From NCBI GenBank assembly GCA_029259775.1, contig JAJDEN010000036.1:1-64000 (forward strand): 64,000 nucleotides of DNA. Reading direction: 5' to 3'. Origin of the DNA: Planctomycetota bacterium (GTDB lineage Bacteria; Planctomycetota; PLA2; JAEUHO01). The notes beneath the pieces are model-generated. The model made no database searches and had not been told where the DNA came from. It saw nothing but the letters and a program-made list of their open reading frames with translations. The position numbers and the translations under genes are program-made. This document shows, piece by piece, positions 6,048-23,152 of the stretch (positions within the stretch are counted from its first letter, which is position 1; each line of letters opens with the position of its first letter).

Positions 6048-7139
6048 ATGTCCAAGACGTACACCCTCGCTGAACTGGCCGCCCTGGCGGGCGTGCAGCC
6101 CGAGAAGGTGCTTGGGTGGGAGGACCAGGGCTTCCTGGGCGACGTGCGCCATGCCGTCATTCCGACCCGCAAGGGTGATCCGCAGAACGGCGACGGCGCC
6201 CGCACGCCCATCTACGGCTTCGAGCAGGCCGAGCGCTGCGTCGAGCTGGGCGGCCGCGGCATCCCGCGGCGGATCTGCGTGGTCAACCAGAAGGGCGGCG
6301 TCGGCAAGACGACGACCACCTTCACGCTCGCCGCGGCCCTGGCGGAGCTCGGGCGCCGCGTTCTGGTCGTGGACCTCGATGCCCAGGCCAACCTGACCAC
6401 CTCGTTCGGCTTCGACCCGGACGAACTGGAGCTGACCAGCGCCGATCTCCTCACGAACGAGAACATCCAGCCCGAGGACGTGATTCTCGAGACGGCCATC
6501 GAGGGCATCCACGCGATCCCGGGCGACATCACGCTCGCGGGGGTCGAGACCCGTATCCAGGACACGCTCATGCGCGAGCGCATCCTGTTCACCAAGCTCG
6601 AACCGTTGTTCGATCGCTATCACACGATCCTCTTCGACTGCCCGCCCAACCTCAGCCGCATCACGCTCAACGCGCTGGTGGCGAGCCGCGAGGTGATCGT
6701 GCCCGTCGAGACGCAGTCGTACTCGATCAAGGCCATCGCCGACCTGACCAACACCTTCGCCCTGCTCAAGGCCAAGATGGGCCATGAGCTGATGGTGTGG
6801 ATCCTGCCGACGAAGGTCGACCGCCGCATGAAGCTGGCCGGCGACATCCTCGAGGCGCTGGACGAGGGCTTCCGCGGGCAGATCCTCGACCCCATCCACA
6901 TCGACAGCAACCTCGTCCGCGCTCCGTTGCTCTGCGAGCCGGTGACGCGCGCGTTTCCGACGTCCCGCTCCTCGCAGGAGTACGGCCGGCTGGCGCGCTT
7001 CCTCGTGCTGCCCGACGCCGAGCGCGCCAAGTGGATGGACCTGCCGCTGCGCACACGCCGCAAGGTCATCCAACGCGCCGAAGAGGGCGCGAAGGACCTC
7101 GGGCTGAACGAGGGCAAGAAGAAGCGCGTCACCGCGTAA
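6048..7139 (+). CDS. ParA/MinD-like ATPase with N-terminal MerR-type HTH
   Basis: 363 aa from ATG 6048. The same frame is open far upstream, but only from here does it read like a protein. Residues 5-70 form a MerR-like helix-turn-helix (TLAELAALAGVQPEKVLGW). The ATPase begins with the deviant Walker A KGGVGKTTT (82-90), then the usual VVDLDAQANLT and FDCPPN motifs. The C-terminus (about 330-363) is Lys/Arg-rich (KGKKKR-type). ParA proteins with a DNA-binding head form nucleoid-bound gradients that move plasmids, chromosomes or cargo. No parB and no obvious cluster of parS-like sites was seen in the flanks, so cargo is unknown. It is convergent with the heptosyltransferase gene across a nested hairpin. 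Confidence 0.88.
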   Translation: MSKTYTLAELAALAGVQPEKVLGWEDQGFLGDVRHAVIPTRKGDPQNGDGARTPIYGFEQAERCVELGGRGIPRRICVVNQKGGVGKTTTTFTLAAALAELGRRVLVVDLDAQANLTTSFGFDPDELELTSADLLTNENIQPEDVILETAIEGIHAIPGDITLAGVETRIQDTLMRERILFTKLEPLFDRYHTILFDCPPNLSRITLNALVASREVIVPVETQSYSIKAIADLTNTFALLKAKMGHELMVWILPTKVDRRMKLAGDILEALDEGFRGQILDPIHIDSNLVRAPLLCEPVTRAFPTSRSSQEYGRLARFLVLPDAERAKWMDLPLRTRRKVIQRAEEGAKDLGLNEGKKKRVTA

Positions 7140-7144
7140 CGCCG

Positions 7145-7250
7145 TAGGGGCAGCCTGAGCGACGAGCGCAGCCAGGAGCCGTTGGCTGCCCGCGAGCCAC
7201 CGTGGGCAGCCAACCACTCGCGCGAAACGGACTCGCTCAGGCTGCCCCTA
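7145..7250. terminator. Nested inverted repeat between convergent genes (REP-like, bidirectional terminator candidate)
   Basis: Outer arms TAGGGGCAGCCTGAGCGA (7145-7162) and its exact complement (7233-7250); inside them a second perfect hairpin, GTTGGCTGCCC (7181-7191) with GGGCAGCCAAC (7204-7214). It fills the space between the stop codons of two convergent genes. There is no T-tract, so termination is inferred. The TAGGGGC ends resemble REP elements mobilised by Y1 (RAYT) transposases; none is encoded in this window. Confidence 0.7.
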
Positions 7251-7255
7251 CCGCG

Positions 7256-8317
7256 TCAGCTCCCCAGCATCCCCAACGCCAACCGCTCCACGCGCTCGAC
7301 CCCCAGCTTGCGCAAGCACGGATGCCCGGGGATCGGGCACACGCGCAAGAAGCACGGACTGCACGGCTCGGGATCGAAGAGCAACGTCCGCCGGCCCTGC
7401 CCGATCGGGCTGCTGACCACCGGATCCGTCGCGCCGAACAGCGCCAGCACCGGCGCACCGACGGCCGCGGCGAGATGCATCGGCCCCGTGTCGTTGCTCA
7501 CCACCAGCCGCGCCTCGGCCAAGAGCCCGATCAACACGCTCAGGTCCGGCGTCCTGCCGGCCGTCCGCAGCAGACCCAGGCCGGCCGCCTTGGCCACGTC
7601 GTCTTCGAGCGGCTTCGTGTCGTCCGTGCCGACCGTCGCCACGTCGAAGCCGGCGGCCATCAGGTTCGCGGCCAGCTGACCGAAGCGCTCGGCCGGCCAG
7701 CACTTGGCCGGGCCGTAGCTGGCGCCCGGCTCCAGGACGACCAGCGGCTTGCGCTCGTCGCGACCCAGCTGCGCGAGAAGATCCACCCCGGCCGCACGCA
7801 GGTCGGCCGGAACGTCGATGCGCCAGGCCTCCCCCACCTCCGCGCCGAAGGCGCCGGCCAACAGCCCGAACCACTGGCTGCGGTGGGCGCGGCGGTAGGG
7901 CTTCCAGCCCTTGACCGCATGCGTGAGCCTGCGCCCGGCCCCGGCGTAGCCGATGCGGAGCGGGATCCCCGCACGACGCGGCGCCCGGGCGGCGCGATAC
8001 GAACGCGGGAAGAGCACGGCGGCGTCGAGGTTCAGTTCCCTCAGGGCAGCCGCGCTCGTCGCGACGTCGCCGAAGCTTCGATCCGGGCCGGCGGGGATCG
8101 TCTTCACGACGCCGGGCAGCAAGGCGGCCAGCGGCATGAACGGCTTGATCACCTGCGCGACGAGCTCGGCGTCGGGCCGCGCCGCCTGGATCGCCGCGAC
8201 GGCGGGTGCCGCCATCACGACATCCCCCATCCAGTTGGGCAGGCGGAGGAGGATGCGCTTCTGCCCCAGCGGAACGCTCGGGAGCTCAAGCGTCGGTGCG
8301 TCGATCGGCGCGCTCAC
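7256..8317 (-). CDS. waaF: Glycosyltransferase family 9, ADP-heptose:LPS heptosyltransferase II-like
   Basis: 353 aa. GT9 features: N-terminal Rossmann motif LPNWMGDVVMAAP (27-38; the WaaF-type NWxGD), a linker, then the C-terminal nucleotide-sugar lobe with VVLEPGASYGPAKCWP and SNDTGPMHLAAAVG. It should transfer a heptose from ADP-heptose to inner-core lipopolysaccharide at the cytoplasmic face. The ATG at 8317 overlaps the stop region of the upstream cytochrome gene by 4 bp, which indicates translational coupling. WaaF fits better than WaaC because of the NWMGD motif, but the exact acceptor is not provable from sequence. Confidence 0.85.
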   Translation of the reverse strand: MSAPIDAPTLELPSVPLGQKRILLRLPNWMGDVVMAAPAVAAIQAARPDAELVAQVIKPFMPLAALLPGVVKTIPAGPDRSFGDVATSAAALRELNLDAAVLFPRSYRAARAPRRAGIPLRIGYAGAGRRLTHAVKGWKPYRRAHRSQWFGLLAGAFGAEVGEAWRIDVPADLRAAGVDLLAQLGRDERKPLVVLEPGASYGPAKCWPAERFGQLAANLMAAGFDVATVGTDDTKPLEDDVAKAAGLGLLRTAGRTPDLSVLIGLLAEARLVVSNDTGPMHLAAAVGAPVLALFGATDPVVSSPIGQGRRTLLFDPEPCSPCFLRVCPIPGHPCLRKLGVERVERLALGMLGS

Positions 8318-14796: not shown

Positions 14797-16407
14797 ATGC
14801 CCCAACGCCACGTCCTCGGACGCACCCTTCTGCGCCGCGCCGTCCTGGCGGCGGCCTGCGCCTGCGCCCTGGCCCCCTGGCTGATCTCCTGTGGCGACGA
14901 CACGCAGCCCGTGGCGCCGCCCACGGACACGGCCGCGCGCGCCCGCGAGGTGTTCGAGGGCTTCCACAAGGCGGATCCCGAGCGCATCCCGTCGCGCTTG
15001 GCGACCAATCCAGGGCGGCCCTGGGGCGATTTCGTCGGCAGCGATGCCTGCAAGCGCTGCCACGAGGAGGACTACGCCAAGTGGCGCGGCTCGTTCCACA
15101 GCCGCACGCTCTACGACGCCGTCCCCGAGACGGTCTTCGGCGACTTCAGCGGCACGGCGCGCTTCGACGACCCCGAGTACGCCTGGCGCGTGACGCCCAG
15201 CAGCAAGGTCGACGCGGCCACCGGCAAGCGTCGGTTCTTCTTGGAGGTGCAGCTCAAGACGCACGAAGAGCGCGGCCCGGGCAAGCTGAAGGACATCGAC
15301 ACCTACGGCTCGGGCGTGCTGCCGGACGCGACCGAGGGTCCGTTCGAGGTGCTCTACGCGTTCGGCAATCGCCGTCACCAGCCGTACGTCGTGCGCGACA
15401 AGGCCGGCCAGGCCTGGGTGGCGCCGGTCTACTGGGACGACATCCAGAAGAGCTGGCGCTACGACGGCTGGCGTCCCTACGTGCGCTCCTGCGGGAACTG
15501 CCACGTGACCGGCATCCGCACAGCGGAGAAGCCCTGGCGCCCGGGGCTTCCGGCGCTGCCCTACACCATGCCCACGCGCTGGAACCTCGAGCCGGCCAAG
15601 GAGCAGTGGGCTGAGGGCGCCGTGGGCTGCGAGGTCTGCCACGGCGCGGGACGCAAGCACATCGAGGCCGTCGATCGGATCGGGTCGAAGGAGTACAGCC
15701 GCCGTCTGGCGGCCGGCACGAAGGACCGCACGATCTACGACGGCAAGAGCCGCATTCGCGAGCACCGCATGCATGCCTGCGGCCGGTGCCACAACTTCAT
15801 GACCGAGAGCTCGTGCACGTGGATGCCGGGGCCGAAGGGCTACGACCGGGATCCGATCCTCGATCTGCTTCGACCCAGCACGTCCATCAAGCCGCACGCC
15901 GATCGCAAGGCCCTGCAGTTCTACGCCGACGGGTCGCACGTGAGTCCGTGCACGGTCTTTGCCGTCTTCAAGACCTCGAAGATGTACAAGCAGGGCGTGG
16001 ACTGCGCGGACTGCCACGATCCGCACGGCACGGATCACTGGGCCGACCTGGTGCTGCCGATCGCCGACAACAGCCTCTGCATCAGCTGCCACACGGACCT
16101 CGACAGCGTCGAGGCGCAGACCAAGCACTCGATGCACATGGCCGGCTCCAGCGGCAACCGCTGCGTCGAGTGCCACATGCCGCGCACGATGGCGTTCACC
16201 AACGGTGAACACATGATGAGCCGTCAGGTGCACAACCACTACTTCAGCTCGCCAACCGGCAAGCGTCGTCCGGGCGGTCCGCCAAGTTCGTGCAACATCT
16301 GCCACGACGACCGCACACACAAGTGGACCCGCGCCACGATCGCGGCCTGGAAGAAGAAGGGCATGCTGAAGGTCCAGAAGGCCAGCTCGCTGCTCGAGGG
16401 GAAGTAG
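14797..16407 (+). CDS. Octaheme cytochrome c lipoprotein
   Basis: 536 aa. Lipoprotein signal with lipobox LISC (Cys32). Eight CxxCH motifs: CKRCH, CGNCH, CEVCH, CGRCH, CADCH, CISCH, CVECH and CNICH, in a layout like cytochrome c554/multiheme electron-transfer proteins. Late in the chain the usual CxxCHMPRT is followed by spaced histidines (NGEHMM, VHNHYF) suited as distal ligands. It should hold eight hemes in the periplasm, anchored by lipid, and pass electrons in respiration. The catalytic Lys-ligated heme of NrfA is not visible. The stop codon TAG is part of the first unit of a 93-bp tandem repeat. Confidence 0.88.
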   Translation: MPQRHVLGRTLLRRAVLAAACACALAPWLISCGDDTQPVAPPTDTAARAREVFEGFHKADPERIPSRLATNPGRPWGDFVGSDACKRCHEEDYAKWRGSFHSRTLYDAVPETVFGDFSGTARFDDPEYAWRVTPSSKVDAATGKRRFFLEVQLKTHEERGPGKLKDIDTYGSGVLPDATEGPFEVLYAFGNRRHQPYVVRDKAGQAWVAPVYWDDIQKSWRYDGWRPYVRSCGNCHVTGIRTAEKPWRPGLPALPYTMPTRWNLEPAKEQWAEGAVGCEVCHGAGRKHIEAVDRIGSKEYSRRLAAGTKDRTIYDGKSRIREHRMHACGRCHNFMTESSCTWMPGPKGYDRDPILDLLRPSTSIKPHADRKALQFYADGSHVSPCTVFAVFKTSKMYKQGVDCADCHDPHGTDHWADLVLPIADNSLCISCHTDLDSVEAQTKHSMHMAGSSGNRCVECHMPRTMAFTNGEHMMSRQVHNHYFSSPTGKRRPGGPPSSCNICHDDRTHKWTRATIAAWKKKGMLKVQKASSLLEGK

Positions 16408-16614
16408 GGGCGACCCTTGTGGTCGCCCGGGATGCCCACGTACCTCGTGCGTCGCGGGCGTCGGTCGCCGCGTGCCCATCCCGTGTGCCCTTACGGGTAG
16501 GGGCGACCCTTGTGGTCGCCCGGGAGGCCCACGTACCTCGTGCGTCGCGGGCGTCGGTCGCCGCGTGCCCATCCCGTGTGCCCTTACGGGTAGGGGCGAC
16601 CCTTGTGGTCGCCC
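16404..16614. repeat. 93-bp tandem repeat, 2.3 copies, REP-like
   Basis: Units start at 16404, 16497 and 16590 with an exact 93-bp period; the first two differ at about one base, and the third stops after ~25 bp. Each unit opens with GTAGGGGCGACCCTTGTGG then TCGCCC, an inverted repeat (GGGCGACC/GGTCGCCC) typical of REP/RAYT elements. The first unit supplies the stop codon of the octaheme cytochrome. Near-identity suggests recent duplication. Confidence 0.9.
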
Positions 16615-16625
16615 ACGAGCCTCGA

Positions 16626-16839
16626 GTGTCCGTGTCCGTGTCCGTGTCCGTGTCCGTGTCCGTGTCAGGAGGGGGTGACACACCACCCGGTCGCGGTACA
16701 TCGTGACGCTACGCACGAGCGGAAGCTCGTGCAGGTTCGTGACCTCACGCCACGTGTATCGGAGCGGGACCCGAGTAGGCCGTGAGGGCCCTGCCCGCCG
16801 GGCTACTTGGGGAGCTCCGGGTGTCCGTGTCCGTGTCCG
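16626..16839. repeat. GTGTCC hexamer microsatellite, two clusters, with a hairpin between
   Basis: GTGTCC occurs 6.8 times at 16626-16666 and again three times at 16821-16839. Between them lies a perfect hairpin GCACGAGC-GGAA-GCTCGTGC (16713-16732). No coding sequence is visible in 16408-16979; the open frames here are repeat-driven. Confidence 0.85.
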
Positions 16840-16876
16840 TGAAGGGGACGTGGAAGGCAAAGTCGAAGTCAAAGTG

Positions 16877-16979: not shown

Positions 16980-19436
16980 ATGGCTCGAACGACGACAGCA
17001 ACACAGTCCCGGTCCGCCCGCACGTCCCGCGCCCAGGCTGAAGTCGAGCCCGTCGGGCTCGAGCTCGCCGGGGTCGCGCTCACCCTGGGGTCGCTCCTCT
17101 TGGGGGCCGCCATGGCGACCCTCGAGGGTGATGGCGGCGGGAGCGGTTTCAGCAACGTGACCGGCGCCATCGGCGGCTTCGCGGCCCGCGGTGTCACCTC
17201 GGCCGTCGGCATCGGCGCCTGGATGTTGCCGGCGTTCGCCATCGCGTGGGGCATCACCTGCCTCCGCGGCCGCCGGCCCGCCAACTGGCTGCGCGCCGCC
17301 CTGTTGCTCCCCTTGCTCATGGGCCTGGCTGGTGTGATCGGCTCCCTCGTTCTCGAGCGCGGCTTCCTGCCCGGTCTCGAGCGTGCGGGCCCCGGTGGCT
17401 ACTTCGGCCTCGCGCTCGGCTCCGTCGCCTTCAGCGCCTTCGGCAAGGCCGCCGGCCTGATCGGCGCCGTGGCGTGGATCGCCGTCTTCCGCGTCATGAC
17501 CCAGATCGATCTCGTCCAGGGCGTGATGCGCCTGGCTGGTCTCATCGCGCGCCGCGGCAGCGACGTCGCACGCAGCGCGACGAAGCGCTCCCCGCGCACG
17601 TCCGACGACGAAGGCGGCGTCGCGGTCGCTGACGAGGAAGAGATCTACGAGGACGAGGACGACGAAGAGGAAGAGGACGACGGGGAGTGGGAGTACGCCG
17701 ACGAGAACGGCGAGTTCCCGACCGCCGAGCTCGACGAGGAGTACGAAGACGAGGAGGACGACGAGGAGGAGTACGAGGACGACGAGGAAGAAGAGGACGC
17801 CGAGGAGGAGGCCCCCGCCCCCGCACGGCCCGCGCCGCGCCCCATGATCGCCGTCCCGCCGCCTCCGCCGCCTCGCAAGCCGCGCGTGGCCAAGCCGCGC
17901 GGCGCGTACGTCGCGCCGCCGCTCAACCTGCTCACGCCCGGCGACCGCGTCGACCCGGAGGCCGTGCGCGAGGAGGTCGAGGCGAACGCCGAGGTACTCG
18001 AAGAGGCTCTCGCTTCGTTCGGTGTCGAGGCGCGCGTGGTTTCGCATCAGCGTGGCCCCGTCATCACGTTCTATGAGATCAAGGTGCCCTCCGGCATCCG
18101 CCTCAGCCGCGTGACCGCCCTCACGGATGACCTCGCCATCGCGCTCAAGGCGCCCAGCATCCGCATCGTGGCGCCGATCCCCGGCCGCAGCACGGTCGGC
18201 GTCGAGGTGCCGAACACCACGCGCGAGATCGTGCGTATGCGCGACCTGCTGGAGCAGGAGGGCGACAAGGTCGACCGCGCAGCGATCCCGGTCGCGCTCG
18301 GTGCCGACACGTCCGGCGCCCCCATCGTCGAAGACCTGGCGAAGACGCCGCACCTCCTGATCGCCGGCGCGACGGGCTCGGGCAAGAGCGTCTGCATCAA
18401 CGCCATCCTGCTGTCGATCCTCTACACGCGCGGGCCGGAGGACGTGAACCTGATCCTGATCGACCCAAAGCAGGTCGAGCTGAGCTTCTACGAAGGCATC
18501 CCCCACCTGCTGACGCCTGTCGTCACGGACATGCGCCGCGCGGCCAAGATCCTCGAATGGGCCGTAGAGCGCATGGAAGAGCGGTACTCCAAGCTCCTGG
18601 CCTGCGGCGTGCGCAACATCGCGGGCTACAACGCGCTGCCGAAGGACAAGCGCGAGAAGGCGCGCGAGCGCACGAACATGGACGAGGAGGAGCTGCCCGA
18701 CAAGATGCCCTTCCTCGTCATCGTGATCGACGAGCTGGCCGACGTGATCCTGACGAACGGCAAGGACGTGGAGCTCGCCATCACGCGCCTCGCCCAGAAG
18801 AGCCGCGCCGTCGGCATCCACCTCGTGCTGGCTACGCAGCGTCCCTCGACGAACGTCATCACGGGCCTCATCAAGGCCAACATGCCGACGCGCATCTCGT
18901 TCGTGGTCTCGAGCAAGATCGACAGCCGCGTGGTGCTGGACGCCAACGGCGCCGATCGTCTGCTGGGCCACGGCGACATGCTCTGGATGCACCCGCGCAG
19001 CCTGCATCTGCGCCGCTCGCAGGGCACGCTGGTTACCGACGCCGAGGCGCGGGCCACGGTCGAGTTCCTGGCGAAGCAGTACCCCGACATCGAGTACGAG
19101 GATCTGCTCAAGACCAAGGTTGGCGAGTTGACCGATCCGATGGGCGAAGACGACCTCTACGACGACGCCGTTCGCGCGGTGCTGTCGACGAAGCTCGGCA
19201 GCGCGAGCATGCTGCAGCGGCGCTTGGGCGTCGGCTACACGCGCGCCTCGCGCCTCGTGGACATGATGAGCGACCGCGGCCTGGTGGGCCCGCATGTGGG
19301 CAGCAAGGCGCGCGAGGTCCTGATGGAGCTGGAGGACTGGGAGGCCGCGAAGGCGCAGGCGGAGGTCACGAAGCCCGCGGCGAGCGAGTACTTCGACTAC
19401 GACGACCCGCCGCCGGTGGATACGAACTGGGACTAG
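16980..19436 (+). CDS. ftsK: FtsK/SpoIIIE DNA translocase
   Basis: 818 aa. N-terminal membrane part with about four helices (28-180), then an extremely acidic linker of Glu/Asp with Tyr (about 217-278), then the alpha and beta motor domains: Walker A GATGSGKS (about 463), Walker B-type VIVIDELADVI, and the LATQRPSTNVITG stretch. The C-terminal gamma winged helix (about 723-785; RRLGVGYTRASRLVD) reads KOPS-type polarity sequences. A hexameric pump that clears and decatenates chromosome termini at the division septum. ATG 16980 is preceded by GGA-rich sequence. The next gene resembles it without the motor. Confidence 0.96.
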   Translation: MARTTTATQSRSARTSRAQAEVEPVGLELAGVALTLGSLLLGAAMATLEGDGGGSGFSNVTGAIGGFAARGVTSAVGIGAWMLPAFAIAWGITCLRGRRPANWLRAALLLPLLMGLAGVIGSLVLERGFLPGLERAGPGGYFGLALGSVAFSAFGKAAGLIGAVAWIAVFRVMTQIDLVQGVMRLAGLIARRGSDVARSATKRSPRTSDDEGGVAVADEEEIYEDEDDEEEEDDGEWEYADENGEFPTAELDEEYEDEEDDEEEYEDDEEEEDAEEEAPAPARPAPRPMIAVPPPPPPRKPRVAKPRGAYVAPPLNLLTPGDRVDPEAVREEVEANAEVLEEALASFGVEARVVSHQRGPVITFYEIKVPSGIRLSRVTALTDDLAIALKAPSIRIVAPIPGRSTVGVEVPNTTREIVRMRDLLEQEGDKVDRAAIPVALGADTSGAPIVEDLAKTPHLLIAGATGSGKSVCINAILLSILYTRGPEDVNLILIDPKQVELSFYEGIPHLLTPVVTDMRRAAKILEWAVERMEERYSKLLACGVRNIAGYNALPKDKREKARERTNMDEEELPDKMPFLVIVIDELADVILTNGKDVELAITRLAQKSRAVGIHLVLATQRPSTNVITGLIKANMPTRISFVVSSKIDSRVVLDANGADRLLGHGDMLWMHPRSLHLRRSQGTLVTDAEARATVEFLAKQYPDIEYEDLLKTKVGELTDPMGEDDLYDDAVRAVLSTKLGSASMLQRRLGVGYTRASRLVDMMSDRGLVGPHVGSKAREVLMELEDWEAAKAQAEVTKPAASEYFDYDDPPPVDTNWD

Positions 19437-19514: not shown

Positions 19515-21779
19515 GTGGCCCCACCTACGATCCGGCGCGTGGAACGTCTGCGGCCCATCCTCCAGAGTCTCGCCACCTTCGTGGCGCCCGGACTCGTCCT
19601 GCTGCTCCTGGGCATCCAGGTGGCGTTCGGGCTGCGTGGCTTCGATCGCCCGGATGACAGCTGGCTGCAGGTCTTGCAGGTGCCCGGCGTACTTCTGGGC
19701 TGGGGCGGCGTCGTCCTGCTCGTCCCGCTGCTCGTGTGGATGGTGCTCGACTGGTGGGGCTATGACCTCGGCGGCTTCGCGCTCAAGGGCCTCGGCTCGG
19801 CCGTCCTCGGCATCGCCGCCGGCACGCTCTGCGGCCTCGCGGGCGAGGTCTCCAGCGGCGGCATCGTCGGGGGCGGACTGGCCGCCGTGTTGGGCGACAC
19901 GGTCGGTCCCATCATCTCCATCGCCGTCCTCGGGCTCATGGCCGTCCCGGCGGCCGTGCTCGCGTTCACGATGCAGAAGCGCGCCCCGCGCCCCACGAGC
20001 GCTGCGGCTCGAGAGAACGAGGCGGACCGAAAGCAGGACGGGACGGAGACGAAAGGCCTTCTTGGCCGCCTCTTCGCGTGGCTTCCGCGGGGCAAGCGCC
20101 CAAAGCACCCCGCGCGCAAGACGTGGTATCCGGAGCGCCGCCTCGATGCGCTGGGCAACGAAGTGCCGATGCAGTTCAAGACCCGCGACGTGGGCGGGAT
20201 CCGCTACGCCGATGAGGTCGCGGAGGCGAGCGCGCCGGAGACGGCCGCCACGGCCGACGCGAGCGACGTCGCGGACGCCCCTGCGGCCATGGGCGATGTC
20301 GTTGCGGGCGAAGAGCGCCTGCCGACGATCCCCGAATTGCTGGCCGGCAACTGGCGCGGCGAGCGCGTCGCCAAGCTGCTTCATGACCCGTCCGGCGGCC
20401 CGCGGGAGACCGACGCCGATCAGCCGGACGACGGCCCGGTCCACGTCGACAGCGAAGGCCGCGCCCGCCGCGCCACGCAGCGCGACGTCCTCATCCCGGG
20501 CGTCTACGTGGCACGAGGTCCGGTGGAGGATCGGTCCGCGGAGGGTCATGAGGTCGCCGGGCAGGTTGGAGAAGGCGACGTGTCGTACGGCGAGGGGGCT
20601 GCCTTGGCAGCGACCGACGTCACGTCCGACCTAACGTCGGACGTTCCGCGACCCCGCCAACAGACGATGGCGTTCGTGCCCGCCCCGCCCGCACCCCTCG
20701 CCGTCACGGAGAGTGCGCTGCCGCCCGGCGTGCGCTACGCCGACGACCCGACGCCGCCGCCGATCAGCGAGGACGACCTCGACACGGACGGCGACCTCGA
20801 CACGGAGGTCGACACGGAGGTCGACACGGAGGTCGATGCCGAGGGCGTCTACGAACTCGGTCTCGCGCTCGACGAAGAGCCCGACCTCTCACGAGCCATC
20901 GAGGACGCCGTCCGCGGCCCCTCCGCCGGACCGCAAGATGCCGCGCACACGGCCAGGTCCATCCGCGAGACCCTGCGCGCCAAGGTCGAGGCCATCCAGT
21001 CCGACGGTGCCAGCAGCCGCTACATCGCCAAGCTGGATTCGATCGGCCTGTTCGACATGGCCGAGCCCGACGCGCCGCGTATGGACGCCGATTCGAGGCA
21101 GGCCTCCAAGAAGGCCTCCAAGAAAGCTTCACCCAAGAAGCGGGCCGCCACCAAGAAGCGGGCCGCATCCGGGAAGCCTGCGGCCAAGCGCACCCGTACG
21201 AAGAGGGGCACCGGGGCGACCGGGACGCGCACGGGGGTGGCCGTCAAGAAGCGTGCGGCCACCAAGAAGAAGACCACGACCAAGAAGCCCTCGGTCACGG
21301 CGGCGGCCACCAAGCGGACTGCGACGAAGAAGGCCGCCACGAAGAAGGCCGCCACGAAGAAGGCCGTCACGAGGAAGGCCGTCGCGAAGAAGCGCAGCGT
21401 GGCACGCCGCAAGCTGCCGCCGAAGCCCAGCGCCTCCGTGCTCGCTGCGCGCAAGAAGGCTGCCGAGAAGGCCGCGATGCTGGACGTACTCCGCATCGAG
21501 CGGCTCGATCCCCTCTTCTCCAAGGCCGTGGCCGCCGCACTTGAACGCGGCGCTGCCTCGCCGGTCCTCCTCACGCGCCAGCTCGGCCTGCCCTTCCAGC
21601 GGGCCACCGGGCTGCTGGAGCGGATGATCGCCACCGGTGTCCTCGAACAGGCCTCACCGCGGGGTTCCCACACGGTTCTGATCACTGCCAAGGACTGGGC
21701 CTCGACGACACCCAAGACGACACCCAAGACGGCACCCAAGACGGCACCGAGCGAGGCGCACAAGCCGTCCCCGACGTAG
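19515..21779 (+). CDS. Motor-less FtsK-like membrane protein with histone-H1-like linker and gamma-type winged helix
   Basis: 754 aa from GTG 19515 (another GTG at 19539 is possible). Residues about 15-155: four or five transmembrane helices laid out like the FtsK 4TM domain, including GGIVGGGLAAVLGDTVGPI. Residues 160-530: long charged linker with a DTEVDTEVDTEVDAEG repeat. Residues 530-640: Lys/Ala/Thr repeats (KKASKKASPKK, ATKKAATKKAVTRKAVAKK), as in bacterial histone-H1-like DNA-binding proteins. Residues 658-725: a winged helix matching the FtsK gamma domain (LDPLFSKAVAAALERGAAS, then RQLGLPFQRATGLLERM). No Walker A or B is present, so the RecA motor is absent. It sits directly after ftsK and before rimO. 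Inference: a septum- or membrane-bound DNA tether acting beside FtsK. Confidence 0.8.
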   Translation: MAPPTIRRVERLRPILQSLATFVAPGLVLLLLGIQVAFGLRGFDRPDDSWLQVLQVPGVLLGWGGVVLLVPLLVWMVLDWWGYDLGGFALKGLGSAVLGIAAGTLCGLAGEVSSGGIVGGGLAAVLGDTVGPIISIAVLGLMAVPAAVLAFTMQKRAPRPTSAAARENEADRKQDGTETKGLLGRLFAWLPRGKRPKHPARKTWYPERRLDALGNEVPMQFKTRDVGGIRYADEVAEASAPETAATADASDVADAPAAMGDVVAGEERLPTIPELLAGNWRGERVAKLLHDPSGGPRETDADQPDDGPVHVDSEGRARRATQRDVLIPGVYVARGPVEDRSAEGHEVAGQVGEGDVSYGEGAALAATDVTSDLTSDVPRPRQQTMAFVPAPPAPLAVTESALPPGVRYADDPTPPPISEDDLDTDGDLDTEVDTEVDTEVDAEGVYELGLALDEEPDLSRAIEDAVRGPSAGPQDAAHTARSIRETLRAKVEAIQSDGASSRYIAKLDSIGLFDMAEPDAPRMDADSRQASKKASKKASPKKRAATKKRAASGKPAAKRTRTKRGTGATGTRTGVAVKKRAATKKKTTTKKPSVTAAATKRTATKKAATKKAATKKAVTRKAVAKKRSVARRKLPPKPSASVLAARKKAAEKAAMLDVLRIERLDPLFSKAVAAALERGAASPVLLTRQLGLPFQRATGLLERMIATGVLEQASPRGSHTVLITAKDWASTTPKTTPKTAPKTAPSEAHKPSPT

Positions 21780-21832: not shown

Positions 21833-23152
21833 ATGGACACCGAAGCACCCCTTGGCCGCATTGCCCTCGTCTCGCTCGGCTGCGCGAAGAACCTCGTCGA
21901 CAGCGAGCGTCTCGTGGGGGATCTGCAGGCTGCCGGCTTCGCGCTGGCGGACGACATGGGCACTGCCGACCTCGCCCTGATCAACACCTGCGGCTTCATC
22001 GATCCCGCAAAGGAGGAGTCGGTCGACACGATCCTCAAGGTGACGAACCAGAAGGAGTTCGGACGGCTGCGCGGCGTGATGGTCGCGGGCTGCCTCGTGG
22101 AGCGCTACCGCGAGGATCTGGAGCGGGACATTCCCGAGGTGGATCGCTGGCTCAGCTTCGGGGACTACACGCACGTCGTCGAATCCGCGCGAGAACTGAT
22201 GGACCTGCCGCAGGTCCGTGAGCTGCCGCCCCAGCGCGTCCTGCTGACGCCGCGCGCCTACGCCTACCTGAAGGTCAGCGAAGGCTGCGACCAGAAGTGC
22301 ACCTTCTGCGCGATCCCCGGCATCCGCGGGCGGCTCGTCAGCCGCACGATCGAAGCCAACGTCGAGGACGCGCGCAAGCTCGCGGCCCAAGGCGTAGGCG
22401 AGGTCAACCTGGTCTCGCAGGATACGACGGCGTACGGCCGCGACATCTACGGCAAGCCGCGACTGAAGGAGCTGCTCCAGGAGCTCACGAAGATCGACGG
22501 TCCGCGCTGGTGGCGCATCCTCTACCTCTACCCGTCGATCCTGCGCGATGACCTGCTCGAGGAAATGGCTTCCAACGACCGGATCGCCAAGTACATCGAC
22601 ATGCCGCTCCAGCACGTGAGCGATCACATGCTGCGCACGATGCGTCGGGGCATCAACGGCAAGCGCCAGCGCATCCTGCTGGAGTCGATCCGTCGGATCC
22701 TTCCGACGGCGGTGATTCGCACGACGCTCATTTCCGGCTTCCCGGGCGAGACGAACGCGGATCACCAGGAACTGCTCGAGTTCGTGCGCGATGGCTGGTT
22801 CGACCGCCTCGGCATCTTCACGTTCAGCCGCGAGGAGGGCACGCCCTCCTTCGACATGGCCGATCAGGTCCCGGCCGCGCTCGCAGAGGAGCGCCGCGGC
22901 GAGTTGATGCAGGCCCAGCAGGCCGTCCACTTGCGCCGCAACGAGGCTCGCGTGGGGGAGGAACTCGACGTCTTGATCGAGGACCACGTCCCGCTCACCA
23001 AGCAGGCGACGGGCCGGACGGAGCACGACGCACCCGAGGTGGACGGCACGGTCCGCCTGAAGGGCGTCGAGCACGCACGTCCCGGAGCGGTCATCCGCGC
23101 GCGGATCACGGCGGCCGACGGCTACGACCTCGAAGCCGAGCCCGTGGAGTAG
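21833..23152 (+). CDS. rimO: Ribosomal protein uS12 methylthiotransferase RimO
   Basis: 439 aa. MTTase N-domain with three cluster cysteines (C17 in LGCAKN, C53 in NTCGF, C87 in VAGCLVE), radical-SAM CDQKCTFC (C152, C156, C159), then the barrel and a C-terminal TRAM domain (about 370-435). It methylthiolates Asp88/89 of ribosomal protein S12 with two 4Fe-4S clusters and SAM. The LGCAKN and VSEGCDQKC wording identify RimO rather than MiaB. It lies between the ftsK pair and pgsA, a common order. Confidence 0.95.
   Translation: MDTEAPLGRIALVSLGCAKNLVDSERLVGDLQAAGFALADDMGTADLALINTCGFIDPAKEESVDTILKVTNQKEFGRLRGVMVAGCLVERYREDLERDIPEVDRWLSFGDYTHVVESARELMDLPQVRELPPQRVLLTPRAYAYLKVSEGCDQKCTFCAIPGIRGRLVSRTIEANVEDARKLAAQGVGEVNLVSQDTTAYGRDIYGKPRLKELLQELTKIDGPRWWRILYLYPSILRDDLLEEMASNDRIAKYIDMPLQHVSDHMLRTMRRGINGKRQRILLESIRRILPTAVIRTTLISGFPGETNADHQELLEFVRDGWFDRLGIFTFSREEGTPSFDMADQVPAALAEERRGELMQAQQAVHLRRNEARVGEELDVLIEDHVPLTKQATGRTEHDAPEVDGTVRLKGVEHARPGAVIRARITAADGYDLEAEPVE

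Follow-up and report, generated by a model that had tools for sequence, protein, structure and literature searches.

A motorless FtsK paralogue with a gamma domain lies behind ftsK in Planctomycetota

The window, a stretch of 64,000 nucleotides from a Planctomycetota bacterium (contig JAJDEN010000036.1), carries a complete ftsK gene encoding the 4TM, alpha, motor and gamma parts. The nearest match of this FtsK among named records was JAHEIK010000144.1 (Planctomycetota; 90% identity). Directly behind ftsK, after 78 nt, a second open reading frame begins with GTG and is followed by rimO, pgsA and pgpA (Table 1). Its exact start is uncertain because the frame is already open upstream. A promoter and terminator scan gave nothing above chance. 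The encoded protein contains 4-5 hydrophobic segments and a linker of ~500 residues, together with a Lys/Ala-rich stretch, and carries a winged helix towards its C-terminus. Profile searches (E ≤ 1) and a motif scan detected no ATPase motor, no FtsK_alpha domain and no Walker A motif, and the FtsK_SpoIIIE motor with its Walker A and B motifs is thus missing from the window protein. Likewise, the motor profile matched none of the 29 paralogues collected, in which the sole Walker A-like string is a membrane loop of L077. The core of an earlier note on this DNA, which had described an FtsK paralogue that lost its motor, kept a gamma domain and directly follows a complete ftsK, was therefore borne out.

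Table 1. Position of the genes, domains and residues at the ftsK locus of the window.
Feature	Position	Strand	Basis
Complete ftsK (4TM, alpha, motor, gamma)	16980..19436	+	Pfam profiles
Motorless FtsK paralogue, 754 aa	19515..21779	+	ORF, GTG start; frame open from 19437
Hydrophobic membrane region, 4TM-like	19578..19973	+	hydropathy; helices in low-confidence model m507fa48f9cfb
Juxtamembrane motif WYPERRxDxxGNExPMxF..RDVGGIRYAD, family-specific	20124..20213	+	alignment of family members
Long linker of low complexity; short motif G-[VI]-R-[YFW] recurs	20214..21098	+	alignment, composition, motif count
Lys/Ala-rich, histone H1-like stretch	21099..21476	+	sub-cut-off HC2 and NF038053 matches; charge
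FtsK gamma winged-helix domain	21504..21686	+	Pfam over cut-off; fold match
Arg at E. coli R1289 position (XerD contact), kept	21576..21578	+	residue alignment
Gly at E. coli R1300 position (KOPS reading), lost	21609..21611	+	residue alignment
rimO, conserved neighbour downstream	21833..23152	+	profile match and gene order in relatives

The winged helix aligned with the FtsK gamma domain, as had been proposed. Pfam FtsK_gamma matched residues 664-724 significantly (E=5.1e-8, 33.0 bits, cut-off 30.6). Further support was provided by an AlphaFold model of this part (mean pLDDT 77.5), for which solved FtsK gamma domains were the best PDB matches (2j5p, E=4.3e-4; 2ve8; 2j5o), with TM values of 0.76-0.89 by target length. 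At the recognition-helix residues N1296, R1300 and E1303, with which E. coli FtsK reads KOPS, the window gamma has Q, G and E and thus lacks the residue set of a KOPS reader. Among 64 FtsKs the R1300 position is occupied by R (61) or K (3), and G1294 and R1297 are kept throughout; the 29 paralogues retain R1300 in 9 cases and have lost it in 20, and keep G1294 in 12 and R1297 in 11. The position of R1289, in contrast, is basic in 27 of the 29 (R in 24, K in 3). All 7 paralogues compared from the window family have lost R1300 and kept R1289, and Q1288 is lost in the gamma of this family. The host genome encodes two strong XerC/D-like proteins. In the host protein aligned to E. coli XerD, only E183 of the glutamate pair that partners R1289 is kept, and E184 is not. 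Contact of the paralogue's gamma domain with XerD is plausible on this basis, although conservation of R1289 may instead reflect needs of the fold or of DNA-backbone binding.

The membrane part was more difficult to assign. A hydropathy scan showed five overlapping peaks, and the model of the N-terminal part was of low confidence (mean pLDDT 67.7). The window protein alone gave E=0.84 against Pfam FtsK_4TM, and hhalign of its N-terminus with the N-termini of the family's FtsKs gave a probability below 1% in shallow alignments. A direct demonstration of homology thus failed and was replaced by matches in relatives. L067, which has the gamma domain and the same gene position, matched FtsK_4TM with 48.9 bits (E=7.7e-13), and the motorless relatives L077 (32.8 bits, E=7e-8) and L068 (26.6 bits, E=5.6e-6) likewise exceeded the cut-off of 23.1 bits. 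The claim of an FtsK-4TM-like membrane part is hence supported through the relatives and not by the window protein taken by itself: members in other families speak for a 4TM origin of this protein type, and for the window member we infer it through them.

In the window paralogue the Lys/Ala-rich stretch reaches a net charge of +39 per 100 residues. The likeness to H1-like proteins that had been noted was upheld in composition, with Lys/Ala-rich repeats in common. The profiles of both families remained below their cut-offs (HC2, PF07382: 23.6 bits, cut-off 40; NF038053: 31.2 bits, cut-off 80), so that "H1-like" describes composition and family membership is not established; moreover, here the repeats make up a portion of a membrane protein. 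In the window family, linkers are near neutral or positive overall, and 5 of the 7 complete paralogues contain 100 residues with a net charge of +35 to +44; in the 13 other families every linker carries a net negative charge (-26 to -244). The histone-like stretch is therefore a lineage-specific addition within one family, in agreement with the earlier view of a gained segment. Since most paralogue linkers are strongly acidic, a basic linker that holds DNA was ruled out as the ancestral state, and holding DNA cannot have been the original task of the linker. Within the window family, the paralogues of L027 and L030 have kept gamma and lack the basic stretch; that of L026 (G006, 6390-8057) has the 4TM part and a Lys-rich tail, lacks gamma and has rimO starting right behind it. 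The complementarity in these few cases suggests a common task for the basic stretch and gamma, for instance holding DNA. We also noticed that the linkers in the window's family contain the short motif G-[VI]-R-[YFW] 1-2 times per protein, or more if loosely read (window 20124-21098; L022-L030, L011). Twenty copies were counted in 11 family proteins against a mean of 0.04 in shuffled sequences, and none in the paralogues of other families. It is possibly a binding motif.

The distribution of the gene was followed with a profile of the N-terminal part, which detected it in 11 of the 12 genomes of the window's GTDB family and in none of the 5 genomes of the sister family in the same order. The twelfth family genome also has no detectable FtsK gamma. 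The paralogue directly follows ftsK in the six family relatives whose contig covers both genes; in G006 the two genes share a contig but are ~9 kb apart, and in G005 no ftsK is found near the paralogue on its contig. A scan of the phylum found at least two gamma matches in 67 of 294 Planctomycetota genomes (our own tally of the table). All 22 loci read outside the window family, from 13 families, contain a motorless gamma ORF immediately after ftsK in the same orientation, and many of them keep the order dfp-ftsK-paralogue-rimO-pgsA-pgpA. The paralogue type thus spans 14 Planctomycetota families. Its place next to ftsK is shared by relatives within and beyond the family, and what had seemed a one-off architecture is an old paralogue. 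Nearby second gamma domains were not found in 20 loci from other families (L088 being too short for certainty), and in several non-carrier loci ftsK is directly followed by rimO. In the sister family (L106-L109), which is without the paralogue, ftsK does not adjoin rimO, and gene loss and cluster loss thus coincide. No second gamma over the cut-off was present in 58 genomes of Omnitrophota, the one group sampled outside the phylum. Three gamma-like matches each were seen in G027 (C69, 81323-82412) and G109 (C17, C11), from other Planctomycetota families, some close together and in short frames.

In a tree of FtsK motors the carriers fell into one clade of 38 rows (SH-aLRT 92), made up of 29 carriers, 6 non-carriers and 3 of unknown state. 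The carrier state required 3 changes on this tree, compared with 20.7 when labels were shuffled, consistent with a single gain and two losses. On its own, the gamma tree is too short to decide whether the paralogues have one origin; constraining the paralogue gammas to one clade was not rejected (p-AU 0.62) and gave a likelihood above that of the free search. Most likely a partial tandem duplication of ftsK gave rise to the gene a single time, in a large FtsZ-less branch of the Planctomycetota, and nearly all carriers still encode it immediately after ftsK. It is maintained by selection, with dN of 0.20-0.34 and dS of 0.7-1.1 within the genus (4TM and motif region). FtsZ was not found in the 12 family genomes or in 22 other carriers. 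Most non-carriers are also without FtsZ, two having only sub-cut-off matches, so that FtsZ loss alone does not explain the gene and was ruled out as its sole cause.

Starting from the observed architecture, gamma homology, synteny and clade distribution, we infer each functional step of a mechanism in which the paralogue would be an ancient, non-translocating partner of FtsK, serving as a passive tether for DNA or Xer where the cell divides. The four-helix membrane part would place the protein, by itself or mixed with FtsK in joint assemblies, at the division site, from where the long, disordered linker would extend into the cytoplasm. There, gamma could contact XerD or DNA without driving translocation, and during pumping by FtsK the paralogue would keep the terminus or dif region at the septum. 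In the window family, where gamma has given up residues for reading KOPS, the added Lys/Ala stretch would most likely hold DNA without sequence preference. We favour this tether, to which we give an even chance, on account of a gamma domain recognized by sequence and predicted fold, a 4TM part in relatives, the absence of a motor from all 29 paralogues, the position behind ftsK, the single FtsK clade, dN below dS, the basic residue at R1289 in nearly all paralogues with R1300 in a minority, the XerC/D-like pair in the genome and the complementarity of basic stretch and gamma. It is weakened by the other needs that R1289 may serve, by a host XerD without E184, by the strongly acidic linkers of most paralogues, by non-carriers of the same phylum that manage without the paralogue and by a basic FtsK extension from mycobacteria that does not bind DNA (PMC13277299). 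In a bolder version, which we consider unlikely, FtsK would have split into two proteins, one pumping and the other a motorless partner; this partner would be a lineage-wide organiser of the division site that assembles jointly with FtsK and links chromosome terminus, Xer recombination and septum formation in the absence of FtsZ.

The strongest rival, in view of what FtsK does in Chlamydia (PMC11975371) and P. limnophila (PMC6952346), is a role in division only. The paralogue might take over the N-terminal division function of FtsK in FtsZ-less cells, with gamma left over as a relic or used to contact FtsK itself. In the FtsZ-less divisome of Chlamydia, FtsK acts as the organiser, and in P. 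limnophila it alone among the dcw proteins is essential. The N-terminal domain of E. coli FtsK supports division on its own, as cited in PMC12283558. That E. coli truncation is, like the paralogue, a membrane part without a motor; it differs in being an experimental form of one protein without gamma, whereas the paralogue is a natural second gene with gamma. L026, in which gamma alone has been lost, is consistent with such a scaffold. However, every complete member but this one has a folded gamma with the conserved basic residue in most cases, and the N-terminal parts, 35-69% identical within the window family, diverge faster than expected of a conserved scaffold. We regard a purely divisional role as a serious but rather doubtful alternative.

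It is improbable that the paralogue loads or brakes FtsK, with its gammas joining those of FtsK on KOPS, or its subunits entering FtsK rings, and so setting where and how many active pumps form. The operon-like position behind ftsK would suit such a function, as would the R1300 and canonical recognition helix kept in some families (e.g. L068, L083). On the other hand, R1300 is lost in most paralogues, G1294 and R1297 are relaxed too, and no ring interface is known without the motor domain. For the window family the gamma residue table led us to set KOPS loading aside: with R1300 lost in every member compared and R1289 kept, it is unlikely, and the earlier proposal of loading or braking FtsK by this route is disfavoured.

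A very improbable alternative is that the partners of the basic stretch are not DNA but anionic lipids or acidic linkers of proteins, such as that of FtsK itself. In the window's FtsK this linker has a strong negative charge (net -39 over 110 residues). In mycobacterial FtsK, a lineage-specific basic disordered extension binds cardiolipin and phosphatidic acid, not DNA (PMC13277299); as in the paralogue, such a segment has been added to an FtsK-type protein, but there it is N-terminal and belongs to a full, motor-bearing FtsK. Against lipid or protein binding, the Lys/Ala repeats resemble H1-like proteins and the C-terminal tails of actinobacterial TopA, which act on DNA. According to PMC7398561, the lysine repeats give processivity to TopA, likewise a DNA-acting protein with an added lysine-repeat segment, but an enzyme. 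Composition alone cannot decide between DNA and lipid or protein binding. That the gene is a decaying duplicate or a chance frame has a negligible probability: high GC does give many long open frames and sequence drift between families is large, but the frame is long and open in 11 of 12 family genomes and 22 further loci with motifs and position conserved, dN is well below dS within the genus, and a chance ORF or pseudogene was thereby ruled out.

With FtsK/SpoIIIE translocases (FtsK_4TM - linker - FtsK_alpha - FtsK_SpoIIIE motor - FtsK_gamma) the paralogue shares gamma, the long linker, the genomic position and, through its relatives, a 4TM-type membrane part. It differs in having neither alpha nor motor and in the relaxed KOPS-reading residues of gamma. 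Since the defining motor is absent, it is built from FtsK parts without being an FtsK translocase. SftA of Bacillus, a soluble FtsK paralogue with a motor and without a membrane part, also has an altered domain set, but the reverse of that of the motorless membrane paralogue. No curated family covers the whole protein, and no description of a motorless FtsK was found in the open-licence literature. The paralogue adds a concrete new candidate part, conserved in 14 families, to the open question of planctomycete division without FtsZ. It also represents a natural separation-of-function experiment on FtsK, in which anchor and gamma occur without a pump. Only one FtsK homologue is reported for P. 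limnophila, so that model planctomycetes with published genetics may lack the paralogue.

Several further features were observed around ftsK. The full-length FtsKs of the window family end in a conserved acidic peptide, approximately DDPPPVD[TE]SWD, after gamma (window 19395-19436; relatives L022, L024, L025, L027, L015). Upstream of ftsK, a 93-nt unit is repeated in tandem at 16404-16614 (two full copies at 99% and a partial third); each unit starts with GTAGGGGCGACCCTTGTGGTCGCCC, which is capable of self-pairing. The same intergenic stretch contains runs of the hexamer TCCGTG/GTGTCC at 16617-16658 and 16812-16841. In several genomes of the window family, a multihaem cytochrome c-type ORF (window 14797-16407) is located between dfp and ftsK, within an otherwise housekeeping cluster.
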